Under the pieces are notes generated by a model. That model had not been told where the DNA came from, searched no databases, and saw nothing but the letters and a program-made list of their open reading frames with translations. A stretch of DNA of 64,000 bases, taken from assembly GCF_964204645.1 (NCBI RefSeq), contig NC_134035.1, forward strand, positions 3,548,001 to 3,612,000, written 5' to 3'. Both the position numbers and the translations under genes were made by a program. Shown here piece by piece: positions 1 to 62,384 of the stretch. Source of the DNA: Tubulanus polymorphus (lineage: Eukaryota; Nemertea; Palaeonemertea; Tubulaniformes; Tubulanidae). Position 1 is the stretch's first letter, and every line of letters starts with the position of its first letter.

Positions 1-76
1 AGTCTCCGTTTTAATCATCTGATTTTCCATCTCTTCTTCCAACTGTCGTAGATGTTTTTCATGCTGTTCTTTTTCT
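1..76 (-). CDS. RASEF: RASEF orthologue, coiled-coil exon (partial, runs off the window)
   Basis: Read on the minus strand, a pyrimidine-rich tract ending in CTATAG (acceptor AG at 78-77) opens 25 codons that stay open to the window edge. The codons give EKEQHEKHLRQ followed by LEEEMENQMIKTET. This is a charged heptad-like coiled coil. From memory it lines up with the vertebrate RASEF segment containing LSELEEEMDQRIQAAEHKT, just after the KR that ends the preceding exon. The first base completes the Arg codon begun by the exon at 225-371, so the phase fits. In RASEF this coiled coil lies between the N-terminal EF-hands and the C-terminal Rab-type GTPase and mediates self-association. The rest of the gene, including the GTPase domain, should lie to the left of base 1. 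Related Rab44 or CRACR2A proteins are the main alternative, but the combined match with the next exon favours RASEF. Confidence 0.82.
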
Positions 77-224: not shown

Positions 225-371
225 CTTTTGAATGATTGTTCGAGTCGTTCATTTTCGAGTTGGTGTATTCGAATGTCTTTGATGACGTCGAGAATTATCT
301 TCTCGAAGCAAGGAAGTAGTTGAGGGTACTCGGTGTGTATCGACTGGTAGAGCTCTACTACGTGTTCTTGG
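225..371 (-). CDS. RASEF: RASEF orthologue, shared internal exon (start of the coiled-coil region)
   Basis: This 147-base exon has an acceptor TGTCATTTCAG|C and a donor AAAAG|GTAGAA. It translates to one completing base plus 48 codons beginning QEHVVELYQSIHTEYPQLLP and ending ENERLEQSFK, then two bases. It aligns along its whole length with the vertebrate RASEF segment that starts REEQVSTLYQNI and ends LAIAVKR. Shared points include the E-x-V-x-x-LYQ-x-I start, the acidic-aromatic middle and the basic end. The segment sits between the EF-hands and the long coiled coil. Its entry phase (one base, c) fits both upstream donors: the one at 10539 gives Cys and the one at 3761 gives Ser. It is therefore the common exon joined by the two alternative first exons. 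The exon is constitutive by this reasoning; no transcript evidence is available here. Confidence 0.88.
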
Positions 372-373
372 CT
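372..373 (-). other. Common splice acceptor for both RASEF first exons
   Basis: The AG reads on the minus strand within TGTCATTTCAG. The exon starts at 371 with a single base that completes a split codon, as both upstream donors require. Confidence 0.8.
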
Positions 374-3300
374 GAAATGACACATTCATTCGAAAATGTA
401 CGTAGATTTCGTCGAAACATGCAAAAATGACGTATATCTAGTATTAAAAAACGTGGACCCTTATTGCGGCCGAAAAATTATGTCAGTTTTAGTAGTAGAT
501 CTTAATGAGTTCTTATTATATTTTCCTATTCTACAAATACAAAAAACCCCAGAATAAACCTCCGAAACTCTTGAGTTTTTTTTTCTAAATCAAAATACTA
601 ACAGCTCTGGCGATATAGTCATATCCAATATATTCGAATCGGGCATCGTTATGGTTCCTGTATCCCAGCGATCGATAAAAATCTATTTTTCCATATATCA
701 AGAAATTCCGGTTTGTAATATCAATCCTAATAATATCGTTTTAAGCCATATACGTATCTCAGAACTTGTTGATGTCACAAAACCATAGTCGGATATATTT
801 CGTGTACGTATTTCGGTATGGCGCAGACAGTACTGCGTCGAGGCAATCCCTGCAAGACTAATATACGTGTATTTAATTGCGTATATATTCATATACGCCG
901 CGTTGTGCACCGTTTGTTTCGCATAAAAACGTATTTAAATCAAATACCGACTCTCCAATAACGCGCCGTAGGATTATATTCCGAGGTAGTGTTTCATTAG
1001 CAGATTTTATTGATAAGGCGTTATCAGCAATCACAGTCTGGCAACATGCGCGATTCTCCTACAAGTTCTAACTGTTATTCAAAACTGATCTATACCTCGT
1101 AAACCATTTATACAGTCTCTGATATTTCGAATAACCTTATCGTAAATTCAACTAAATTCCTTATTGCAAATTATAAGTTGGTAGATGGAAGGATATAGGG
1201 CGTGCGGGAAGACGCATGTCAATTGTGTAATAATGGAATTGGGGACGAATCTACCGTACATATTTAAACGATAGTAAGGGATTATATCTGGATTGAAGAT
1301 TTTCTACGAACCCAAACTTTTTCAAAATTTTTTATTTTTGTTGGTAAAATGGCGAGACTTTTCACTTAATGATTCCCTACAATAACTCTGCGCTCACGTG
1401 TATACAAATGTTCAACTGTACTGTAGGTCGTATACAATGTCTTTCTTTCATGTACTGTAACACTCGAATTTTTATTCGTATTTAGACCAAGTATTTGTCG
1501 AGTAAAGTGAAGTAAAATTGAATATTTTTACCGGATCGTGCAGTATAATGCTCTGCGTGCGCCTATGCGTATTATGATCGTTTGTCTGTTCTTTTCATTT
1601 CTCGGTCACGCGTAACGGTCAAGGTCGTTTTAAGTTTTCATTAACTCGCTATTGTCGAGTGTGTATTTCGTAAGGAAATTCACATAATCAACGTTTACTT
1701 TTGATCCGCCTTTTTTTGTCCCGATTACATCCGCGACAATCATGGACGATTCCACTCATGGCAAGCGAAGGTCCGCCAGATTCGCTACTAGCTTGTGGGC
1801 TTTGTTTTATGTAAACTTCTTAATTGAAATCGAACCGATTTTTCTTGAAATTCATCGATTTCAATGGAAATCTTTCCAAACACTCAGTAGAAAGGTCTAT
1901 CATAAATATGTTCGGTAACTTAAGATGCGATTATGTATTTAAATTCTAAAGGAACCTTAGAATCTTTATCAAATTTGATCAAAAATGAACTACTTCCCAC
2001 TACGCGAGTAGCTGCGAGGTGTGGCGGGTTATCCGCATCGGAATTAACTAGCGAATTTTACCAGAGAATATCTCTTTTTCCGAGTCGACAACCGCGCATA
2101 TTTCAATTCGATCGAGTCGCCGGTGTATGAAATACCTGCCTGGAAGAAGAAATGACGCTCGGTATAAAACAGGGATATTTTACCAGCGCAAACACGCTGG
2201 CAGCGATAATTTCAGCAGTAACAGCTGGCTTCATTTTCAGCTCCACCCTACACGAGCAAACAAAGCCGGTCCAGGCTGGCTATATACGTTATTATGATTA
2301 TAAGCTTTGCAGCATTATAGCGAGATCTTCGCTTCGAAGCTCGGCCTACGCAAAATCCGGGCAAAACTAACGGTGTCATTTTTATCCATATGCGTCGTCG
2401 ATTGTGTGTCATTTGTTTTTCGTTGAGACGAAGGTTGTTCGTCACGACAATATAAAAACGAGCTTTTGACGACAGTAGAAAAACAACCGTTTTATTCTTA
2501 AATGTAAAATGAGAGACTCGCGAACAAGATTTGTTTAGATTTAAGTTCAGAGTTATGTGTAATATAATCATGACTTATAGATTTTTTTGTTGGTTATAAT
2601 TTCGACTGTTAACCCGCAGCAGCCAAAGGAGTCTACACAAATTTGGCAGCCAAATCCGAATCACCCTTTTAGAATTCCATATACATCTATTATGTAATAT
2701 AAATTTTTATTATCATTATTATTATCATTTTCATTATTGTTATTATTATTAATATTATGATAATGATAATTATTATCATTATTTTCATTATTATTATTAT
2801 TAGCTATTTCGTCATCAAAATTCAATTCTACAAGATACTTTACATGATATCTATAAAAAAAACAAGCATTGGTGACGATTGCCCAATGGAATTGTGATAA
2901 GTAACTGTTTATTTTAACTGTTAGAAACACCTATAATGAAAAAGACGATCAAATCATTTTTGGTCATTTTCGAAACGGACCATTGTGAAAACCTGAATTT
3001 CCTAGTTAATTCATATTTCGTTTTAGTTGTTTGTACTGCTTTGTCGTTATTCTTTAATGTAGGTAGTTTTGCTTTGAAACGACACCGTGACCTAGACTAT
3101 GACGTCACCTGCGACGTCAAACCTGGCCGTTTCCTTAACGAACGCGCCATGTGTTAGCGTCAGTGGTGCGATGAATTAATTTCAACTGTCAAAGAAACAC
3201 CAAATTTAATTACAGTAATAATTCTCATTCTCAAATAGCAAATTGGAAGATCGCGTTTTATTTCATCGTTATTTTCGAATTAGGATTACTAGAAATTTCG

Positions 3301-3758
3301 CCGTGATGTAATATATATTTTTGAAATTGATAAATGATTCATATACGTATTTTGTCGTACGGTTCAGCACGGCACAGTGTATCTAAGAGGACACCTGTTG
3401 CTGCTTTACGTAGCTGAGTCATCACGGCAGATGTACTCGTTGATAATGTATGCTAAATAATTCTACGAAAATGCTAATATTATTTCCAGTTTTTATTCGA
3501 TCAAAACGCGGTTAAATCTAACCCCGCTGTTACACCAGCGGGAGTTGGGTAATCCATTGAAAATACGATACGCCCCGTGATGGGCATCTGCGCTAGCTAA
3601 ACACACGCTTGGAAATAGGCCCACTGCATGATTGATCTGAAATTCCATCCCGGGTCAAAGGCCCTATAAGTATGAAATACCATCAGCAATTCAAGCTCAT
3701 TCATATCATCTCTGAAATTGATAATTTTGAAAATTTTATACCGAACATACAGAGCCAT
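374..3758 (-). other. RASEF intron downstream of alternative exon 1b; no gene seen
   Basis: About 3.4 kb of AT-rich sequence with only short chance ORFs. It holds a low-complexity ATT/ATC stretch at about 2696-2812 and a CRE-like TGACGTCA near 3100-3107. I saw no conserved exon, RNA gene or intact mobile element. For the transcript from the upstream exon at 10539-10984, the intron would run from 10538 down to 372. Confidence 0.6.
2696..2812. repeat. Low-complexity ATT/ATC trinucleotide tract
   Basis: The run is made almost only of ATT, ATC and AAT triplets. The minus strand therefore reads as an apparent Asn-rich ORF, which is an artefact of the repeat. Confidence 0.85.
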
Positions 3759-3760
3759 AC
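3759..3760 (-). other. Proposed splice donor of RASEF exon 1b
   Basis: AATCATAG|GTATGG on the minus strand leaves two bases of a split codon, matching the phase-2 donor at 10538 and the one-base start of the exon at 371. A GT within CTAG|GTTTTT further upstream has the wrong phase. Confidence 0.65.
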
Positions 3761-4893
3761 CTATGATTGAGATATCCGACGTTACACATAACATCCGTGC
3801 AAAAACCTAGTTTATCACATGTCGGCAGTTCAAGGCAGATACTGTGCCGCCTGCGGATCGGGAAGTGTCTGATGATATTCGGTGGGTTGTTTTCGTCTTC
3901 GAACAACGAGTTTATGGACGGTGGGCGGCTACATTTACCCGACGCGCCCCAAGACGCCGACCTCCGCACGGACGGCGGGAAGTGGGGACTATCGTAGAAA
4001 AGACTGTCCGTACTTTTCGTACTATCCGCGGATATTTCTTTCATGTCTTTTAAGTGTATTCGTTTCGATTTCGACGCGCAGCACGGATTTCTAGCCGCCG
4101 ATTCGTCGTCGAGGAGTTGGGGACTTTCCACCAGCGCCGTCAGAGACGACGACCTCGACGACGAAACTTCGGCCAAAGTTTGTTTGAAATCGTTTTCGCT
4201 GATTTTTCCGTCGTTATCGTAATCTAGACGGTCGAATATTTGATCGATGTCCTGACTCGCCCAGTCGGCGCAGAACGCCCGCAAATCTTCGCGCTCGATG
4301 AAACCGCTTCCGTTGACGTCACAAGCGCCGAACAGCGCTCGTTGCTGTTCGGAATCCTTCGCCGCTTCCGCGAACGCCGAAAAGTAGTCGGCCGAATTAG
4401 TCCTCTTTTCGGCGGCATCTTCGCCGATCTTGTCGCGATCTTTCTCCGACTGTTCCGGTGGTTTCGCATGTCCGTCGCCGGTAGAAGCCGCCTCCCGATA
4501 CTCGGCGGCCGCCTCGTCGACTATGGCCAGTAGAGATTTCTCGAAATCCGTTTTGCTGATTCGCCCGTCCTTGTCTTCGTCCAAAGTTTCGAAAATCTCG
4601 TCGATATCGCTCGGTTCGAGTCCGGCGCAAAACCGTCGCATGTCTTCGCGTTCGATGAATCCGCTGCGATTGAAATCGCACGCGTTGAACAGCTTTTCCC
4701 GCTTTTTGGCGTCGGTCGCGGCTTCGGCGAAGATCGTGATATCCCGCGAATCATCGGCGAAGATCGTGACATCTCGGGAATCATCGGCGGCGGCGTCCAG
4801 CTGAGTCGTCGATGTCGTCTGTTTCGGGCTGTTGACTTCTTCAGCCTTTTGAAGACGCTTCCTTTTATCCTTAGTTTCGTCTCCCTTTTTCAT
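3761..4893 (-). CDS. RASEF: RASEF alternative first coding exon (1b) with four EF-hands
   Basis: From the ATG at 4893 the exon encodes 377 residues plus two bases. An in-frame TAA lies about 50 bases upstream and A is at -3. An open frame extends a little further upstream, but only to a TTG, so 4893 is the start. A basic N-terminus and a duplicated decapeptide (about residues 36-55, ADDSRDVTIF then ADDSRDITIF) precede two EF-hand pairs. The Ca-binding loops are at residues 73-84, 105-116, 192-203 and 224-235. All have D at 1, D or N at 3, S or D at 5 and G at 6, but Asp rather than Glu at 12. A Ser-rich tail follows, with a basophilic RRSASWG site. The end is set at a donor AATCATAG|GTATGG, whose phase fits the acceptor at 371. 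The read-through frame would stop soon after, at 3736. Vertebrate RASEF has only one EF pair. The exon is more CpG- and GC-rich than its surroundings. Confidence 0.85.
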
Positions 4894-4956
4894 AATGTAT
4901 TTCAATATCGTCTGCTCACAAAGCGTAACGGACAAAGACTCGCGTTACGGTCACCA

Positions 4957-4968
4957 GGTGACGTCACC
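4957..4968. promoter_or_regulatory. Palindromic cAMP-response-element-like site upstream of RASEF exon 1b
   Basis: GGTGACGTCACC is a perfect 12-base palindrome containing the full CRE octamer TGACGTCA. It lies 64 bases upstream of the ATG at 4893. CREB/ATF bZIP factors bind this octamer. The transcription start is not known, so the site may be promoter or 5' UTR. TGACGTCA also occurs inside dispersed repeats in this window, which lowers the weight of a single hit. Confidence 0.4.
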
Positions 4969-7656
4969 GGAATTCGCCGTCGTCCGAATATCAGACGAGA
5001 CTGGATCAGATAATCGGCACCTTCTCGCGACGTAGAATCCATCGCTGATAATAACTCTACCACCATAACGCTCAGCGGCGATAAAACAATACGACACTTT
5101 CTCGGAAATCCGTCGTAACCGAAGCACATTCGTCGAAAATATATGATGATAATGAAAATAACAATAATGTCGCACGTGCGTCTTGCGTCGTTTTATGTGT
5201 ATATCTCAGTTATAGAGAGATCCGTTTTGATTCGTCGCCTAATGGTAACTATACGCCGTTTAAAACACTGATACTATACGTCCCATAGTCGCGCGCAATG
5301 CTCTATAATGCATTATAATATCATCAGTCGTCGCCTAAACTATTCCTAGGCAAAACAGCTGCTTGGATATATGTATATATGTACATATTAATCATCGCTT
5401 GTGCGCTAGCGCTCTGGATGCTTGAAAAGTTGAAAATCTATAATTATCGCCGTCCATATGTTCAAATGTTATAGTTACGAAACAATGGAATTTGAATAAA
5501 TGCTAAACACGCGCGGGCCAATTATAAGCCTCTTTACGAATCGAACCGCGGTTACGCCACACGATTAAAAGTTGGAAAAACGCGTTTTTGGGATTTGGCA
5601 GCGTTGAATGTATAACCGGAATCTGCGTGCGTAGAATCGGTTTAAGCCCGGCCACACATCACTACAGTGTAGCCTACCCTTACTACTAGCTACTAGCAGC
5701 AGCAGTTCGAACAAAACGTCACAGCTCGCCGATTATCCTGCCACCAGCTGCTGTCTCCCTGTCTGCGCGTCCCTCTCGCTGAATAAGTCTCTAATCGTGA
5801 GGTCGTACAAGTCACGTCAATCGGTCTTTGCGAGTTGCAATCACATAACTCAAAAATCAGAGAGTTTTATGTCGTCGACTCGGCTCGTTTCTTTTTTCGC
5901 ATTATAGTATATCGATAGAATATATGAAATGATCTCGGTCCCACCACCTGCTCCAGCTATGGATACTCTGTTCTACTAGCGCGCACTATAATTAATAGTC
6001 CACTGCGTGCTAAAAAATGTCGATTATCTTATCGCGAATTTTTCGTGTTTGTTTAAATCCCGATATTTGCTTTACTCGCACGATTGAGGTCTGTACTAAG
6101 ATTCGGTTACCGACGACAATGCGTCCGCGGCAATCGAGTATTCCTCGTGGTGCGAGCGTAGAACCGCTTGTATAGTTAGTCGGTCCGGCTCCGGGTCAAT
6201 GTCTCTTGAAATCGAACCCAACTCATCGCAGAAGTGAATATAGATGAAAACCTAACCAAACATCGGGTAGAAAGTTCGACGGTGTTTGGCATTCGAAAGC
6301 CTACGAAAGACCCATTAATTCGTTTGATGGGCAAACGGGTTTTCCGAACGGCAAACTTTCGAACGGCGAAATATCTATGTCCTTTTTGTCTTCGTTGTTC
6401 GTGTTTCTTATGATATCGTATTTCTTATTGTAGTTCTCTTGACATCGACTGGTTTTCGGAGTTGAAATATCGAAACGAAATCATCTTTCATTCTCGCTCC
6501 CAGTGTTGTTATTGTTCCAGCATATGCAGGCCAGCAAGGCTGTAACTGCTATATAAGTATTGAATCATTGTCGATTGGTGAATTTGATGTGCTCACGAAA
6601 ATCAATCGCGTTGAATTCGAAATAAGTTGAATTCTAGTTCAAGTATAAGAAACATTTGTCCCGAGGATACTTAATAAGGCACATCGAGCCTTCCATAGTT
6701 CCCGACATATCAGATACTGTATGCAAATAGGCAGGCAGCGAGAAGTATAATTGTATATTTCAATGATCCGATTAAAATTCGTATCTAAACCGAAATCAAT
6801 AGTTTTAAACTTAAAACGTGTGATGCCCAATTTCAACTATGAATTTCCCAATTCATAGTATAGGTTAACATTATGCTGATAGGAAATATAATCATCAATA
6901 TCATCGTTTCTAACATCATTAGCATATCATTCCTTTCAAATCCTTCGGTGCAATACACAATACACGATGCAACTCGAGCGGCTTATTTTTCAGCTATCGA
7001 TTTTCCCAAGTTTATGGCGAAATGATTACGAAAGACTCTTTGCGTCGACGTCAGCATAAATCGCTGGTTCCACGTAACTATTTTCTTCTTTATTTCCGAC
7101 TTCGATTCAAAATTACGTAATGCTATGATATTCTTCTTCGATACTGTTTAGCTCGAAAGTCGATTTTGACGATGTCGTTAGGCTATGTGACAATACGATT
7201 TGCGTAAGCGTTGACCGCGCTACGTTTTTACGGTCAATAAACCTAGCAATAATAAATTTGCACACGTATCACACAACGCATATAGATATCTATGTACATA
7301 ATGCGTAATTTGAATAAATTTGACGGTTGAAATTAGCATCGATCCGAAATTGCGTAAAGGATCAACGGCAGCTGTTGAAATTGTATTTTTGAAATGCTCA
7401 ATACGTCACTGCGTAGGACGTGCGTGACGTCACCGTTACGAAGTATAACCGCCACCTGGTGCAGGGGTTAGGTGTTCTAGTTACAGTCAGGTAATGAATA
7501 TTCGATTTTCTGAGAATAGGTTGTTTGTAGTTTTTCTCCTTCAAAGAAGACCGGATTCAGAATCTGCCTTACGCATACCCCAATAATTATTTCGTTCAAG
7601 CAGGTTTGACGTCACGATGGCATAAGATATTATCCTATTAAACGAAAGAGAAGCTA
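4969..7656 (-). other. Flank of exon 1b, inside the long RASEF intron; nothing coding
   Basis: AT-rich non-coding DNA. This stretch should contain the promoter of the exon 1b transcript, but I see no clear TATA box or initiator that I can defend. No exon, RNA gene or complete mobile element was recognised. Confidence 0.5.
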
Positions 7657-7804
7657 GTCCGAAAAAGTAACTTTGAGGTAATATACTATTCGATGTTTGA
7701 ATTTTATATATCCTGTTAACATCAGACTTGAGTAAAGTACTGCATTGGCGAACATGACTGTTAGGGTCGAATCCGATATATTAGCTCAAAGTTACTTTTT
7801 GGAC
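7657..7804. mobile_element. MITE-like element with GTCCGAAAA-type inverted ends
   Basis: The element begins GTCCGAAAAAGTAACTTTGA and ends with a near-perfect inverse, TCAAAGTTACTTTTTGGAC. The total is 148 bases with no coding capacity. The termini match those of the elements at 25027, 54321 and 56310, so this is one family of non-autonomous foldback elements. It lies inside the long RASEF intron. Confidence 0.7.
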
Positions 7805-7813
7805 AGTAAAGGT

Positions 7814-7935
7814 CAGGATCCGATTTCATAGACTGGTATCAACTTTAACCTGGGGGTTAACTCAGTTCATTTTCGATTAAGCTAGCCGCCCCTTGGTTTA
7901 AGTTGATACCAGTCTATTATAAAACCGAGTCCTAT
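7814..7935. repeat. Foldback repeat of the 'GGATCC-A-GTTCCA' hairpin family
   Basis: The arms at 7828-7850 and 7895-7917 form an essentially perfect 23-base inverted repeat (ATAGACTGGTATCAAC at its outer end). The loop contains GTTAACTCAGTTCATTTTC. That loop motif recurs in the hairpins near 12840, 31545 and 41160, so these are members of a small hairpin family scattered over the window. Confidence 0.65.
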
Positions 7936-8983
7936 GGTGATCTAAATTTCGCTCATAATCATATAAAATCGTCGATAAATGTTCGTGCTTGTATCATGAA
8001 TTAGTCGAACGATGGAAAAACTGTTAACGACAGCTGCTGCTGATGTGTGTTCGATTAAGAACCCACTTCATAGCGCTGAAAGTAAAGACCTACCTACGCT
8101 TTGTGAAAACATAATCATAGAATCACACGCGTGTAACATACATTCGCGTACATAATGAATATTATCGAATTTTCTAGTTCCAGCTTTACAATAATCGGGA
8201 AGATCTATCAATTAGAAAGATGGATCAGATATAATAATTGCTGAATTTGTTTTTTTCGATTTCAATTTTCCATTATTTTCTTCGCTACGATTTAAGAGAG
8301 TAAAGCAATTCATTGGTCAGGTTAACATTATGCAAATGATAGGAAATATACTATCATTATTTTTACCATCATTGAACATATCATTTTTTCTACTCCTTTG
8401 GTGAAATACAAAACAATGAATTTATTCACGTTCCCGAAAACGTTCGTTTTCAATAGACTTATTTACATAAGTTGAAAATGAGATTTATCATGTGTACGCT
8501 TCTGTGGTTATTCATTTACCCCAACTCTCAACCGGAGATGAACTTATTCGGATCGAATGCGCAATACAATTTCCCATTTCCCCTTGTCGGCACAGCTCTC
8601 GACTACATTCGATCGGAAATACCGAAAACTATTCCGCGAAAGTAATTGTCGACTAAAAAAGGGACATTAAAGGAAACGTATCGATGTGTAAACCTATATT
8701 GAGGTGAAGATCCTATTGAATTGTTCTCCGATATCGATAAACGCTTCGGTGGCGTCGTGTTCGACGACTATTTCAGGTTAAACAAACAGTTGATTTAATG
8801 ATCCATTTCATTATCCGTTCAACACGAACACACGAATACCGATATCTGGTTTGATCAGCTGCTCGATCAGGAAGCACAATCCGACATTCGATATCACGTA
8901 GGCGTATGTCGAAATCATTAAGAAAAATACATAAGTAATTGTTACGTGATATATTCGTTTGAATAAATATATTTGAAGGGTTT

Positions 8984-9445
8984 GGGCTGTCCGTATGAAA
9001 GGTGTCCAACGTCGAAGCGGAGGGGGGTTTGTGAACTTCGGACTTTTGTGAACAAGGGGAACGGGGATGTTGGATTTGGGCATCCTTCTTCGAGGGGAGG
9101 GGTGATCACCAATGGGACAACTTTTATGGATAATAATGTATAGGCTCTATCCGAGTTCTCTTAAGTCAAGTGCTGCATTAAATGAATGACTACTTCAACT
9201 TTCATATGAATGTTTTCAAGATAATGTATGGAATAACAAACTGTGGTCCAGAATGTATAATAGATGATTAAGTGAAAAAACGATTTATTTTGCATAACTG
9301 GATATCCGAAGTCTTAAACTGCTTTTTGTCCGACGGACAAGTGGATGGGGCTAGTGCAATAACAATGTGGACATTCTGTGGACACGGGGAGGGGAGTTGG
9401 TCAAAATCTTGCTGTTTTGTGTGGACGCCTTTTATGGACAGCCCC
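8984..9445. mobile_element. Non-autonomous DNA transposon with GGGCTGTCC ends
   Basis: The left end reads GGGCTGTCCGTATGAAAGG and continues to a GTGTCCAAC. The right end, in inverse, reads GGGGCTGTCCATAAAAGG and continues to GCGTCCACAC. The interior of about 460 bases has G-rich tracts and no transposase ORF. The paired GGGCTGTCC ends followed by a GTCCA motif support a short DNA element moved in trans. I could not define the target-site duplication, and the superfamily is not assigned. Confidence 0.65.
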
Positions 9446-10145
9446 TTGAGATGTCGTTAAGGTCGGGATGGGACAAATCATTTACTGGCGATATTTGTAT
9501 AACCTTCAACTTCTGAATTTCTGTGGTTCTTTCTATCGATAGTTTTCTCACTACGTGCTCTAGGCTTTTAAGGACTCAGAATGGTCACTCGAACGCTCGA
9601 TGAAGTCAAGCCGTCGCATAATCAATAGATTTTTAATAATTAGTTCTGGAAGTATGCCAATTACATTCATTTGTTTGCGCTAAATTCGTACGCACTAGAA
9701 CGACGCGCATACTCCGGAACATAGCCCCGACGAAGCTGACATCCTGAAGACGTATTGCGAAAAACCTCTTATTTAACGTATACGAATTTCTTATTTTCTT
9801 GGGAAAATCAGAAAAAAGTCGTCGTCGTTGGAACCGGTGTTTTTGTTCGATTATTCCGTAATCGTTTTTTTTTCTCGCACGGGATTACGTGACGTAGCGA
9901 ATCGTGCATTCCAAGAAAGTCAGCAGGTGTTCACGCCAGAGTCAATCTGATGAAGTATAGGCACACATTTCAATAATACGTTTACCGGCTATGAATAATA
10001 ATGCGCGAGGGCGAGATAAAACAGACGTTAAAATCAAATAAAATTAATCAAAGTCTCTCATGTGTCGCGGGCGTATGTATTTCGGTGCATTCAGAGAAAT
10101 TGCATTTTTTTTTGTTTCGATATTTTCGTATGATCTACCACACTC

Positions 10146-10432
10146 TACAGGGTCGACGGAAAAATGTCATATAACTAACCGTTGATGTAGCGGAATAAAA
10201 AAATACCATGTTAGGTATCAGTATTGACATGAGAAGGGTACTTTTACATGTAAACACCTAATTATTTTCCTTAAGAACCGCATCGACTTCTCTCACTTCA
10301 AAAGGCTACCATTTGCTTTACTTAACCGATTTAATGATTTCATCTCGAAGATCTTATTTTTCTATGGCACTATACTAATAATTGTCCCAGTCGGTTAGGA
10401 ATATGCTACCGCATTTTCCCGGACACCCTGTA
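10146..10432. mobile_element. MITE-like element with TACAGGGT ends
   Basis: The left terminus TACAGGGTCGACGGAAAAAT faces an inverted right terminus CATTTTCCCGGACACCCTGT. They match over about 16 of 21 positions. The interior of about 245 bases is non-coding. It ends only 107 bases from the splice donor of RASEF exon 1a. A lone TACAGGGTG at about 62797 may be another fragment. Confidence 0.5.
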
Positions 10433-10536
10433 TCGACCGACATCTTTCTTCATATCGGAGATAAATCGATAAATCCATAATAAAATGCTTTTCTTCGTGA
10501 ACTAGAATCAATAGAATGAATGTTGAATATCTACTT

Positions 10537-10538
10537 AC
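10537..10538 (-). other. Splice donor of RASEF exon 1a
   Basis: TTG|GTAAGTAG on the minus strand is a near-consensus U1 site. It leaves two bases (TG) that join the C at 371 to make Cys. Without splicing the frame stops one codon later. Confidence 0.85.
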
Positions 10539-10984
10539 CAAGATAATGCGGCGAGGCCATCTTTGAGACCGTGCACTGCGTATACTGTTTCATCCTCCCG
10601 CAAGGCGTCCAGACTTTCTCGACTATCCAAAGAATCTCTGCTTCCGTTTCTACTCAAGGCCGCCGTCGACATACGCCGCCTTTTGCGGCTAATGTTCAGC
10701 AACGTCTGGCTAATACTCTTAAAACCCTCGGCGAACTCGTTCACGCTGATGCGACCGTCTCCGTCTTGGTCTAGTTCGGAGAACACGTCGGTCAGTTCGT
10801 CCGAAGACAGTTCGGTGCAAATGCTGGCCAGTTCGGCCTGATCGATGAACCCGGAACTGTCCAAATCGCACGCCGAAAACAACTGCGCGATGTACTTCTC
10901 TTCTTTTCCTTCTTCGGCGCTCGAACCTGTCGGAGTTGCCTCCGGTTTTTCGTGATTAGGCGGCATGGCGGCACTTTCAGACAT
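10539..10984 (-). CDS. RASEF: RASEF first coding exon (1a) with one EF-hand pair
   Basis: The ATG at 10984 sits in a good context (CACCATGT) with an in-frame TAA upstream. The exon encodes 148 residues plus two bases. After an unstructured head come two canonical EF-hand loops at residues 40-51 (DLDSSGFIDQAE) and 72-83 (DQDGDGRISVNE). Both have Glu at position 12, as expected for a Ca-binding pair. The flanking helices (AQLFSACD, ASICTELSSDEL, EFAEGFKSI) resemble the N-terminus of vertebrate RASEF (VFAACDANRSG, ALCTEL, EFARGF). A basic RKRRR stretch and a Ser/Arg/Asp-rich repeat (SRDSLDSRESLD) follow and are probably disordered and phosphorylatable. In the family the EF-hands sense calcium, the coiled coil oligomerises and the Rab domain binds GTP. 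Exon phase fits the shared exon at 371. This is the form most like the vertebrate protein. Rab11-FIP3 and CRACR2A also pair EF-hands with coiled coils but match less well. Confidence 0.87.
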
Positions 10985-11721
10985 GGTGCTATCGCATCCG
11001 CCGTTTTCTTACTATCTATTTAGCAGTTTGTTCGAGATAACGTCCTAAACCGCTTGGGCACAGGACGGAAAATGAATTCCGACGTTTATTGACGCTAATC
11101 GCTAATCTACATCCAACGCCTGTTAACCAGCGGTAAGCTGGCGAAAAAGCGTCGATCTCATGGCTAAATTATTATTGAATATTTCTTCGATGAATTGTTA
11201 CCTGAAACAAAAAAAAAAACTAAGATGTTGAAACATAAAATATCATCGATTGATATATGAAGCTTTCGTCGTTTTCGTTAGTTTCATCAATAAAACAATG
11301 ATATAATTCATATCAATTTGAGAACTCATGTCAACCAGAATCCCTCTAAACGCCATTCTAATCACAGTAGGAATCATTTTGGTGACTGTGGTACATATCT
11401 AACCTTATGGTATTAATTTAGATATACACCGTGCCATATTTTCATTCTGTTTTTCAGGATCAAGTTCCATCATATTTCGGTAAAGATTAATTCTTCGAGT
11501 TGAAATCAGTTAATTTTCAATGCCTTATATCTTAAGAGTCGAACATTAGCAGACAGCTAGTGTACTGGATTCCGATGTACACAGCATATCGTCAATGGCT
11601 TTTCTATTTATCATCAATTCCGATCATAGATTAAGAAATGATTATTTTTGCGATTTTTCGCGTTAGGTTTTCAGTCAAGTAACCGTCCGATATCGATAAA
11701 GTGAAACCCACAATAATTTGA

Positions 11722-57665: not shown

Positions 57666-60615
57666 TTCAATGCCCAAATGCTTCTGTCTAAAGCCCACGC
57701 TTAAATGTAAGCATATATATATATCAATATCATCAATCGGGTATTGAACTACAAAGGCTTGCAAACAAAATGTGATACTCGTCGACTATACTTTCCCTCG
57801 GTCGAGCAAACACAAAAAACAATGATCTCAAACTGACTGGATTTATTTGTAGATAAAACAAATGCTTTTTATTTTCGTTCTACAAAATATATTTCAACAG
57901 AATGAAACGAATATTGATATCACACTATATTTTTTTTAGATGTTAAGATTTTGTTCTATAACACAATATTTCGATATATTCATATAGTATCACTTATACA
58001 GATATATATATTTATATTTAAACAAAAATATACGATAATTTTTTTTCTGTCTTCAAAACAACCTATACAATACATCCTAATATCACGGGGTTTTTTATTG
58101 CCATTTGCTTCGCAGGCAAGCACCTTGAAGAATAGGTTTTATGATAATCCGAGAGAGCGAAAATTTGCTTGCGATTTTATTTTATTTTTTCGAGAAGGCA
58201 AAAAAATAGAACTAGTTTCGTATTTCACGTGGTATTCATTGTCTTCGTATTCTGGATAATTTCTAGGAATCAGACGTTGAATAAAATACGTAGCATGGAT
58301 TATTTCCTTCCAACCGAAATATTTACATCATTCATAAATTGTATTTACACATAGTTTTAGTTTCAGAATCGGTATTTACAGTAACTCAATAGTGTTAATT
58401 AAACGCGTTCGTAATCGCTGACTCGCGTAACAAGCTGCACTGACATTGTCCAACTATGACCCCGAGACCTTTCGTTCTAAATCTAATAATATCGATAATG
58501 CATATAATTTTGTAATTCGCTTCGTAAGAATAGACTTTCTTTGTCTTTGAATTATCAGGAAGATGCTATTCGAACGCGGGTGCGATTTAGAATGAACTTT
58601 CGTTTCGAAGTCGGGGCGCAGCAAGAATTGTGGGTTGGCTTACGTGAACTGTTTTTGTTCTATTCTCAACTCCGAATAGAATTGTGAAAATTTATGATAT
58701 AACGCGTTTTTGAAGCCGAGTTTAGCTCATATATTCGGTGATATCGGTGCGCGAAATTGCCTGGAATACTGATTTCACTGGTTACCGAAACCACCGTAGC
58801 CACCGTCACCATCGCAGATGAGCTAATACCGCTTCGAAAACACACATCGTCCAGAAAGTATGATTTTCATTGGATTACGTAACGCACACCGTTCTCATAG
58901 CGATAACAGTGAGGTGGTAATGGCTTAAGCCGATAACCCGCGCTGCTGGAGAGAAAAACGGATTTTGCGTCAATGCGTTTTAGTTATTGTTAAGTTCACC
59001 ACCGAACTCCAGAATAGAGTATAAGGTTCAACCCCCAATAAATAGCTTTTTGCCGATTTCATCACTGTTTGAGTTGCGCCGAAACGAGAAACACCGCTTA
59101 GCGAATCGCTATTTCTCAAACCGTTTTTATCTTTATTTATTTCTTTTTGTTTTACTTTTCGTGTTCATTTTGTGCTGTGTGTGCGTTAGGCCTTAGTTTA
59201 GTCACCTCGTCAGGTCGTTCGATTTAGCAGCGATCGTTAACGCCTCAATTTCGTCTACGGTTTCAAGCTCCGTCATAGAACCGGTTCGACTCTGTGACGA
59301 CTGTTTTCCTACTATCAACGTCCTATATATAACCGGAAACCCAATCAGATCCGATAGAAACAGCCGACTTCGATAGAATCGATATCATTGTCGGATGCAG
59401 AATATCGTATTAGTATCGAGATTTTCGCAGCAATTACTAAAATGAGTATATCGTCTTTTCAAACAGGGTTTTCATTTTTATCGTGGAAGCGGCATCAAAA
59501 AGCGATCAGTCAATTTTTGACATCGTTAAAAATAAAGACGTCCGTTCAATTTCCGAAATTAGTTCCGTATTCACGGGCATTTGGTCGTATCGTTTCGTTT
59601 ATAAATTTCGCCGATGATTTTCAAAATCTTCGAGAAAATCGCGAGAGTAGAGTCTGTAATCTAAAATTTCTCAAAGGATGGCATCGGTAATCCCAAGGAT
59701 TTAAGTATATTCTGCGTATTTTATGTGATAGGCTGATCTCTCCCGTAAACCGCAATGGAACGGTGTATAAGAGACACGTGCTAATAATGGGTTGGTAACG
59801 AATTCTGTCAGTTTCTATCGACGAGTGACTGTGTCTACAATTTGAAGAAAAAACCCACGGTTATGAAGAAAAACTGTGGGTGAAGTTTCGACTGGAGCCA
59901 TTTTCAAAATAGCTTTGATAATGGTTCATAGCATTGAGTTGAAATTTCATTACCCTTTAAGTTTCGAAAATGGCTTATAGCATTGATACGAAACATCACT
60001 ACTCTATAAGTTTTGGAAAGAAGCTCAGAGAATTGAGTCTAAAACATTACTATTTATCATAGTTCTGAAAATATGGCTCAAAGAATTGAGTCTGAACGTT
60101 TCTCTTAGTTTTCAAAAAAGGCTCATAGAATCGAGTCTAAACGTAAAAATACTCTTAAAATATTTTCCACAATATTAAAAGCGGTTGATAAAATGGCACT
60201 TGAGTCGAACATCGCTATACTTTCTTCATAATAGTCGGTTTTTTCTTCGATCGTAAATTCGGTTACAATCATTGCGCATCGAATCGAAATAACTAATGCG
60301 GCCCCGAACGCTATTCGCCGGTTAAAAACATATCGTCCGCACGGCCGTCGTTGTCATCCCATGTCGTCGGTGTCCGTCACGCAAATATAATTAAGTAAAA
60401 CGAAACTAAATCCGAACGATTTTTCTTAAATCTTATTTACTTTAATAATAATATATGATAATGAAATAATGATTCAGTCAACGAAACCTGTTTTTTTTCT
60501 AACGCATTTTCCTTCAGATTTTGTTTTACATCTCGGCGATGTTTGTATACACTGTATTGCGCGTAATACATACATATACATACGTGCTGGAGACGAGTCT
60601 CAAATGTTTCTACTC
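57666..60615 (-). other. Downstream flank or intron of the Wamide gene; no exon identified
   Basis: If the donor at 60617 is used, a short final exon (perhaps only 3' UTR) should lie here or beyond. I could not identify one: no minus-strand ORF with Lys-Arg sites is present. A tandem repeat array lies at 59890-60150. The rest is AT-rich and unremarkable. Confidence 0.5.
59890..60150. repeat. About 50-bp tandem array, second locus of the GAAAATGGCTCATAG unit
   Basis: About five units, each GAAAATGGCT(C/T)ATAGCATTGAG-like followed by an AACGT/ACATC-TACTCT segment. The array is more diverged than the one at 45085-45375 but has the same unit and period. It lies 470 bases from the Wamide exon. 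Confidence 0.75.
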
Positions 60616-60617
60616 AC
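60616..60617 (-). other. Splice donor overlapping the stop codon of the Wamide exon
   Basis: AAATG|GTGAGTAG on the minus strand is a strong U1 site. Read through, the same bases encode Gly-Glu-stop (stop at 60612-60610). Spliced or unspliced, all 13 peptides are kept. Confidence 0.7.
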
Positions 60618-61539
60618 CATTTTTGTCAAATAACTTCAGGACATTTTCCGATATAGGTTTATCCAAAGGTCCGGCACTTCTTTTGCCCCAAATATCCAAA
60701 CCCCATTTACGTTTGCCCCACAATCCATTGTTCCATCTACTGATGGTACGTTTTTTGTCACTTCCGCTTCCGTTCGAGTCTCGTTTTCCCCACATGCTCG
60801 TTTTCCACTTCCGCTTATCCGGTTGGCTGTCTTCGACGTTTCGTTTGCCCCACATGCCAGTATTCCACTTCTGCCTTTTACCCCAGAGTTGCATTTTGCC
60901 CCACGCCGCGCCGCGCTTGCCCCACAAGTTCATCGTTTTAAACGCCCTCTTATTATCGAAATCAGAATCGGCTAGTTCGGACGACCGCTTACCCCAAAGG
61001 TCCATGCCGCTTTTGAACGCGCGCTTATCGGAGTCTAGTTCGCTCGATCGCTTGCCCCACATGCCGGTATTCCACTTTCGCTTATCGTTTTCGAAATCGC
61101 GTTTTCCCCACAAGTTCGTTTTCCACTTTCGTTTCGCTTCGTCAATTTCATTACTGCCTTCGACGCTATTTCGTTTGCCCCACATCGACGTTTTCCATTT
61201 TCGTTTATCGGTGGCGTCGGCGGCTCGTTTGCCCCACATGCCCGTTTTCCAGCGACGCTTTTCCATCGCGTCATCGTCGTCGTCCCGTTTTCCCCACATC
61301 GAAGTTTTCCATTTTCGCTTTTCGTCGTCGATGTCTCCAGCGGCCGCGACGTCGCTGCGTTTGCCCCACATGTTCGTCTTCCATTTTCGTTTATCGAGTT
61401 CGCTGAGCGGCACCGCCCCGATTTCCTTGCCGATCGGGCGGTTTAGTTTGTCATCTTCGGTTTCAGTTTTATCACTGGCTATTGAAACGATCACGCACGC
61501 CACGAGAACTCCAACACTCATAAACAACGCTTTCGACAT
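60618..61539 (-). CDS. Wamide (MIP/WWamide-like) neuropeptide precursor, main coding exon
   Basis: The ATG at 61539 (context TTGCCATGT) opens 307 codons plus one base. An apparent earlier start at 61551 is TTG and is not used. Residues 4-21 are a hydrophobic signal peptide, with likely cleavage after Ala21. After a 30-residue acidic leader come 13 peptides, each ending W-G-K-R, the signal for Lys-Arg cleavage and C-terminal amidation. Nine are of the (K/R)W-(K/N)-T-x-(M/L)-W or related W-x4-W form: KWKTSMW three times, KWNTGMW twice (one with an N-terminal Gln that may cyclise), and KWKTNMW, RWKTGMW, KWKTNLW and KWGLDIW once each. The others are TISRWNNGLW, GAAWGKMQLW, AFKSGMDLW and AFKTMNLW. 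Acidic spacers of 7-14 residues with their own KR separate most copies. Closest known relatives are MIP/allatostatin-B and molluscan WWamide (WKEMSVWamide). Members of that group signal through class A GPCRs such as the MIP/sex-peptide receptor. Confidence 0.93.
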
Positions 61540-61567
61540 GGCAACTTCCAATTTTGGCAGCCGAAAT
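61540..61567 (-). other. 5' UTR part of the Wamide exon with upstream splice acceptor
   Basis: TTCATTTTTTCTAG reads on the minus strand directly before 61567 (AG at 61569-61568). It is a good acceptor 28 bases upstream of the ATG, so at least one non-coding 5' exon should lie further right. It was not found within the window. Confidence 0.65.
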
Positions 61568-62384
61568 CTAGAAAAAATGAACGAAAGAAAACATAATTAG
61601 ATATTGTATCGAAGAAGTCGTAGGCCCGTACGATTCACGGTCGGAACCAGGGACGAGTAATAAGGGTCTCGACAATTCAAATTTCCATAGGTAGAGGGGG
61701 GCAATTAATTGAAAAAAGGCATTGTGGGGTTTTACAAGGGTCTTATATAAGACACCTTATCCACTTTTGAATACGTTCGTATTGTGGCTAAGCAGATTTT
61801 CAACAAAACTGCCCCCTTTTTTCCCTTGGAAAGCACCTATTTCTGATGTACGACGACATCGTAACATCGACATAAACGTCTTAGAGTCACTGGGGCAGTC
61901 AAAATTTTTAGGGGGTTTAACAAGGTTGTCATAAAAGACCCCCCGGATACCGTCTTGATGATTCGTATCAATGCGTCAATATATACCATCAGATATTCGA
62001 ACAATGAAATGAAGACAATGGTATTTACGCCATAGATCGAGAGGAGATGCTTAGTGTATGAACGCGTGTGCGCGCGGGTTAGTTCTGGTCTATAATTGAT
62101 GAATAGAAATTACTCTGCGGATTCGTCTAATTGAACTCATAAACTAACAATTTCCTGTGTATGTCTGTGCGGAGCTGTACGATATCCTGTATTGTCGTCG
62201 GTCGTTGTCGCGCTAATTTGAACGTCGTGCGATGTGTACGAACGGCTACCGCTCGACGACGATCATTAGAAAATCCGGTTGCATTTTTAGTCATAGCTAT
62301 ATACACTTTTTGACGCCGTAAAAATCGTTACAATAATTCTTATATACACTGATACCTAGTATGCGATATTCAACGGGTTCTGTT

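Follow-up and report, generated by a model that had tools for sequence, protein, structure and literature searches.

The 64-kb stretch of Tubulanus polymorphus DNA presented here (the window), on contig 11 (C11) of a 268-Mb genome, holds the 5' part of what its Rab domain marks as a RASEF (Rab45) gene. Two predicted exons here, A and B, each bring a start codon, EF-hands and a phase-2 donor that fits one and the same downstream exon, E2. The most likely reading, which we hold with somewhat better than even confidence, is that transcripts use either A or B as first coding exon, never both, and join it in phase 2 to a common body of coiled coil and Rab domain. The observation itself is sound and beyond chance; both exons read in frame into that body, and the phases and the full-length readings agree. 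The two heads differ in the last residue of their EF loops, and the consequences that this would have for calcium and for dynein are discussed below.

One body and two candidate heads

The analysis covered the window together with 50 kb beyond its start, 114 kb in all and free of N; positions to the left of the window start carry negative numbers that continue the window coordinates. Splice sites were scored in bits with generic matrices, untrained on this genome, and the 114 kb hold 6284 GT and 5619 AG sites for comparison. The body begins with E2 (371-225) and E3 (76 to -14) and continues through exons at -351 to -446, -534 to -799, -2490 to -2580, -4448 to -4491, -5677 to -5810, -6704 to -6822 and -7272 to -7454, followed by Rab exons that span -7622 to -9982 and, from -11046, by a terminal exon whose peptide closes with KSCCNM. 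Exons E2-E6 are charged and read in frame; this coiled-coil-like middle region may correspond to the coiled coil of human RASEF. The Rab domain is complete and lies beyond the window, as the initial annotation had supposed; it matches Pfam Ras at 3.5e-53, and its best solved match is human RASEF (2p5s, 6.1e-69), with Rab26 next (1.6e-40). Because the EF module of A is equally close to CRACR2A and to RASEF, the identity of the gene as RASEF rests on this Rab domain. The E2 peptide has a single match in the whole genome; thus, judged by its sequence, this is a single RASEF (Rab45) gene, and a retrocopy or a second RASEF gene is rejected.

Splicing in silico gives an A form of 751 amino acids (aa) and a B form of 980 aa, neither with a stop. 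Both joined models make a full EF-coiled coil-Rab-CCNM protein with the predicted C-terminus KKSCCNM, in which a cysteine prenylation motif is present. The sequence, coordinates, phases and start and stop contexts of both exons are as first annotated, with in-frame TAA stops upstream of the two start codons at 11011 (A) and 4947 (B). EF-hands in both exons had been claimed as well, and Pfam finds one pair in A (EF-hand_7, 5.8e-14, plus two single EF hands) and two pairs in B (an EF-hand model at 2.7e-21, plus four single EF hands). The donors, TTG/GTAAGT at 10539 for A (8.4 bits) and TAG/GTATGG at 3761 for B (7.1 bits, reached by 1.7% of the GT sites), both fit the one-base start of the exon at 371, again in agreement with the initial annotation. 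The long Ser-rich linker of B also agrees with that annotation; it has 138 residues, of which 23 are Ser. An AlphaFold2 model of the B EF region, made without an alignment, has a mean pLDDT of 55 and is usable only for the helix-loop pattern and four short loop strands.

The open frame of B runs over 402 codons, and its codon choice was compared with that of the gene. These tests were trained on RASEF exons including exon A, with introns as the null; one of them was also trained on B before 4136, where its values are circular. With B left out of training, 17/17 in-frame 30-codon windows starting from 4857 to 4137 lie above the 99% level of the intron null. With B in training, its synonymous codon choice is coding-like, at the 99% level, to about 3851. 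The stretch 3961-3851 scores 0.126 without B in training, above the 95% null level (0.077) and below the 99% level (0.192). Past 4002 the reading frame of B is still the best of three, and the donor at 3761 is the best phase-2 site after 3851.

Table 1. Features of the RASEF locus in window coordinates
Feature	Position	Strand	Description
First coding exon A	10539..10984	-	ATG at 10984; 148 codons + 2 nt; one EF-hand pair; phase-2 donor
Acceptor-like site upstream of the A ATG	11202..11217	-	TTTTTTTTTGTTTCAG, 14.4 bits; first exon base 11201
Alternative first coding exon B (candidate)	3761..4893	-	ATG at 4893; 377 codons + 2 nt; two EF-hand pairs; phase-2 donor; 3' end uncertain
EF-hand pair B1	4537..4695	-	best solved match human RASEF EF-hand 2pmy, E 5.6e-11
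EF-hand pair B2	4156..4377	-	stretch matched by exon A protein (E 9.7e-11); 2pmy is its best solved match (E 4e-10)
30-nt tandem repeat in exon B, 2.2 copies	4724..4789	-	in frame: DDSRDVTIFA / DDSRDITIFA
Alternative donors of B	3939..3962	-	3939: 7.1 bits, phase 1; 3962: 5.0 bits, phase 2
90-nt piece of exon B	3761..3850	-	8.3-bit acceptor, in frame; may serve A transcripts as an internal exon; not coding-like by codon choice
Shared exon E2	225..371	-	147 nt, phase 2 at both ends; the RASEF body begins here
Shared exon E3	1..76, extending out of the window to -14	-	coiled-coil-like region; later body exons reach about -11148
Possible third first exon	-4491 to -4253 (C11 about 3543509-3543747)		in-frame 5' extension of a body exon

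The proposed choice between first exons and its alternatives

Several points weigh against this reading. The acceptor at 371 (TTTCAG/C), which both forms would use, is weak at 2.5 bits, a score reached by 18% of the AG sites. The last 29 codons of B (3850-3761) are null-like, at -0.129 per codon with B outside training; scores this low occur in 25 of 573 true coding windows, and the null median is -0.22. When amino-acid make-up is weighed in, 3/4 windows starting at 4002 or later fall below the 95% null level. Since the coding signal fades at the end of B, the 3761 junction is not certain; thus, for an exon that had been placed at 3761-4893, the start, the frame and the donor are present, but the 3' end is uncertain. 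Other exits from B can be drawn, as a join from 3939 to an alternative E2 acceptor at 366 reads through in frame and the phases of 3962 and 371 are compatible. Last, the EF module of exon A, taken on its own, resembles CRACR2A and human RASEF equally well (identity 41% to human RASEF 2pmy, 40% to CRACR2A and 39% to the worm's own CRACR2A), and 2pmy is absent from the best 60 of 343 solved matches for A.

How transcription would start is a separate matter. There is a considerable chance, though one short of even, that a single promoter lies upstream of both exons and that an untranslated leader is spliced either to A (at 11201) or to B (at 4911, 5345 or another site), a sub-case that overlaps with exclusive first exons. 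The acceptor-like site in front of A is one of only two of the 5619 AGs in the 114 kb that are as strong; it implies an exon upstream of A, and 11201 is the probable 5' end of exon A, behind an untranslated exon. The possible acceptors before B, at 4911 (4.5 bits), 5345 (6.5 bits) and 5413 (5.9 bits), are mediocre, and transcription could equally well begin anew just upstream of B; no leader exon was identified, though no search was aimed at one. As 11201 points to an untranslated exon ahead of A, a single promoter whose transcripts take up either first coding exon is no less simple a model than two promoters. The two promoters of the initial annotation are thus only one of two models, and transcripts of A need not start near 11000, where it had put their start.

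A different view takes B out of the RASEF gene and would remove the exon choice altogether: B would be a separate unspliced gene nested in a RASEF intron, running to the stop at 3738-3736 and giving a free four-EF-hand protein of 385 aa. The frame of B does stay open for 8 codons beyond 3761, and codon choice reveals no exon end there. However, B lies on the same strand and in the order of a first exon, its EF pairs are of the RASEF type, and the 3761 donor is in the right phase for E2 with a score that few GT sites attain, and we consider a nested gene unlikely.

Serial use had been excluded in the initial annotation, and for full B this is right: as an internal exon after A it is rejected, as the AGs in its leader do not fit the phase and there is a stop ahead of it. 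By contrast, its final 90 nt could be joined to A in frame. The acceptor at 3850 is in frame with the A donor and the piece is of phase 2 in and out, so that A would be spliced to 3850-3761 and then to E2, gaining 30 residues for a protein of 781 aa, and full B would be the 5'-extended start form of that exon. A similar 5'-extended design seems to occur at -4253..-4491 of the same gene. On the other side, 0.93% of AGs score as high as 3850 and B has 62 AGs, so that chance alone would supply one or more sites of this strength in about 44% of cases (by hand arithmetic), and the 90-nt piece itself does not look coding-like; we regard this arrangement as improbable. Further exons with phase 2 at both ends were rejected too: the A-B interval and the B-E2 interval each hold one weak candidate.

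That B is a decayed or unused duplicate is very improbable, considering its long open frame, the ligand-type residues that it keeps at loop positions 1, 3 and 5 with Gly6, and the coding-like codon choice over most of its length; the B1-B2 dN of 0.37, with a dS too large to compute, was also counted against decay.

Proposed metal preference and dynein coupling

Positions within an EF loop are counted from 1 to 12. In exon A the two loops, DLDSSGFIDQAE and DQDGDGRISVNE, end in Glu12 (2/2), and head A should be the normal RASEF head, with canonical Glu12 loops and predicted Ca2+ binding. In exon B, all four loops, DFNRSGFIERED, DEDKDGRISKTD, DVNGSGFIERED and DYDNDGKISEND, end in Asp12 (4/4), with the other ligand positions of canonical type and the residues at 1, 3, 5 and Gly6 kept. 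For comparison we sampled 20 genomic EF regions, every seventh row of the EF listing, counted by hand. A count on the eight best EF loci was left out of the comparison, as five of them (L001, L002, L005, L007 and L008) had been read on the wrong strand. Three of these (L044, L053 and L056) are without a motif-fitting loop, second loops are often cut by the end of the match, and degenerate Asp12 loops in L044, L049 and L053 were left out of the count. Among the 20 motif-fitting loops of this sample, 17 have Glu12 and one each has Asp12, Lys and Gly. The hypergeometric chance of Asp12 in four of four B loops is 5e-4, a value that overstates the case because the four loops of B are duplicates of two.

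Asp12 is described as lowering Ca2+ binding in favour of Mg2+ in passages of PMC2873350, PMC8622359 and PMC5983762, and a passage of PMC7655957 states this shift for EF-hand dynein adaptors, with the first loop of FIP3 as a case. Since all four loops of B end in the residue that is reported to favour Mg2+, B is probably a calcium-indifferent head and not a bigger calcium sensor, its calcium specificity having probably been lost. The initial annotation had read B as a four-EF-hand calcium sensor; the four EF-hands stand, but their loops are of the type that these passages connect with Mg2+.

We propose the following mechanism. Each first exon would supply its own start codon and EF-hand head and be spliced in phase 2 to the common coiled-coil and Rab body, both exons being transcribed, as we infer. 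Head A, with one EF-hand pair and Glu12 loops, would bind Ca2+. Head B, a putative local duplicate with two EF-hand pairs, Asp12 loops and the long Ser-rich linker, is predicted to be Mg2+-loaded or of low Ca2+ affinity, and would for this reason hold one state at any calcium level. Because the EF pairs of relatives (CRACR2A, FIP3 and ninein) bind the dynein light intermediate chain (LIC), the choice of first exon may decide whether one vesicle-bound Rab grips dynein through a Ca2+-binding head or through a calcium-indifferent one, perhaps with two sites. Indeed, the CRACR2A EF pair binds the LIC1 helix only with Ca2+, and FIP3 and ninein bind without Ca2+, according to a passage of PMC7655957. 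The joint proposal goes further: first-exon choice would swap the metal specificity of a dynein-adaptor Rab, with A gated by Ca2+, B constitutive, Mg2+-held and possibly two-site, and a third start at -4253 adding a Rab form without EF-hands and coiled coil. Taken as a whole, it is doubtful that all of this holds together.

Several points speak against such a calcium switch. The four Asp12 residues are two ancestral loops duplicated, so they are not four independent events, and Asp12 loops can still bind Ca2+. In the work of Wang et al. of 2019, dynein motility driven by human Rab45 was reportedly not calcium-activated, unlike that driven by CRACR2A. As human Rab45 has the Ca2+ ligands present in both loops, according to a passage of PMC7655957, a motility that is not calcium-activated though the loops keep their ligands speaks against a calcium-gated head A. 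KASH5 and FIP3 are stated to bind dynein without calcium in a passage of PMC10071310, and the sections of PMC8303950 on Rab46 and dynein are contradictory, calling the interaction Ca2+-independent in one place and Ca2+-regulated in another. Predicted and measured metal binding can differ greatly, as a passage of PMC8622359 points out. For the two-site idea, caution comes from a passage of PMC7655957 in which the later EF-hands of ninein, its second group, failed to bind LIC1.

Origin of head B, a possible third start and known systems

The protein of exon A has five matches in the whole genome (39 candidates, all scored): itself, the two EF pairs of B (35% and 36%), a locus on contig 1 (C1), and a weak one beside calmodulin-like EF-hands. 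Its best non-self matches are the B pairs, at 9.7e-11 and 2.3e-8, with the CRACR2A homologue on C1 behind at 1.9e-6. B1 shares 54% identity with B2, and the two share 36-38% with A; B1 is 43% and B2 41% identical to human RASEF 2pmy, against 32% and 28% to 6psd, and the CRACR2A range is 26-32%. The stretch that runs from where loop 1 ends to the Phe preceding loop 2 measures 17 residues in A, B1 and B2, and 19 in human RASEF, human CRACR2A and the worm's own CRACR2A (both counted by eye). Since the nearest genome matches of A are the pairs of B, and A and B have in common this two-residue-shorter linker, B is probably of local origin, and the simplest history is probably that the RASEF head was copied locally and that the copy, B, then duplicated internally. 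The dS values of 1.4 (A vs B1) and 1.8 (A vs B2), together with a B1-B2 value too large to compute, indicate that the duplication is not recent. Homology of the A and B linkers is unsupported: 93 of 500 shuffles attained their local score of 28.

B as part of a CRACR2A gene is rejected, as B1 and B2 are nearer to 2pmy than to 6psd and a separate CRACR2A homologue exists. This CRACR2A/EFCAB4 homologue lies at C1:23378000-23381131 (L020), scores 79 bits to 6psd and has a first EF loop that ends in Asp; by eye, one of its exons appears to begin at the place equivalent to E2.

In the RASEF body, the frame of the exon at -4448 to -4491 stays open upstream as far as an ATG at -4253, which follows an in-frame TAA at -4232. 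A start there, with the same donor, would give a predicted Rab form of 437 aa without EF-hands or coiled coil; according to a passage of PMC8303950, EF-less short forms exist of mouse Rab44, of mouse Rab45 and, as 4R79.2b, in C. elegans. Two side observations concern the window itself. Between 2501 and 12500, the CpG observed/expected ratio exceeds 1 in 19 of 20 bins of 500 bp (range 0.77-2.1), a ratio from which little DNA methylation may be inferred. At 60503-61597, long open frames overlap on both strands (365 aa on the plus and 328 aa on the minus strand), and other minus-strand frames around them show repeated CGAN/CGEN-like units by eye; this may be a repetitive coding exon.

Among known systems, the RASEF/Rab45 proteins of human and mouse are alike in their EF-hand pair, Rab domain and C-terminal Cys motif, and probably in their coiled-coil-like middle. 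CRACR2A/Rab46 (EFCAB4B) has the same architecture, and its homologue in this genome also has an EF1 loop that ends in Asp. Rab11-FIP3, ninein and KASH5 are different genes that are not known to have a Rab domain. They are alike in being EF-hand adaptors that bind LIC1 without Ca2+, as passages of PMC7655957 and PMC10071310 describe, and by the former Asp12 is the one departure from a canonical sequence in the first loop of FIP3, and more than one EF pair is present in ninein. CRACR2A is unlike the present case as a different gene with one EF pair and one Ca2+ site (from a passage of PMC7655957). Alternative N-termini are known for mouse Rab45, which has a long form and a short EF-less form in testis; there the alternative form drops the EF-hands, whereas here the alternative exon would swap in a second, larger Asp12 EF head (in the part of PMC8303950 on Rab45). 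Caldendrin/CaBP1 is also one EF-hand gene with different N-termini by alternative splicing, but in the account given in a passage of PMC4110014 the N-termini differ and EF-hand heads are not swapped; its EF1 has Asp12 and binds Mg2+ (in a passage of PMC2873350). The literature searched, with subscription journals mostly outside it, yielded no description of RASEF with four EF-hands or with alternative first exons that encode EF-hands.

If the proposal is true, one gene would supply both a calcium-regulated and a calcium-blind motor adaptor. A natural Glu12 head and a double Asp12 head on one body would then make a ready-made swap experiment on the function of the head.

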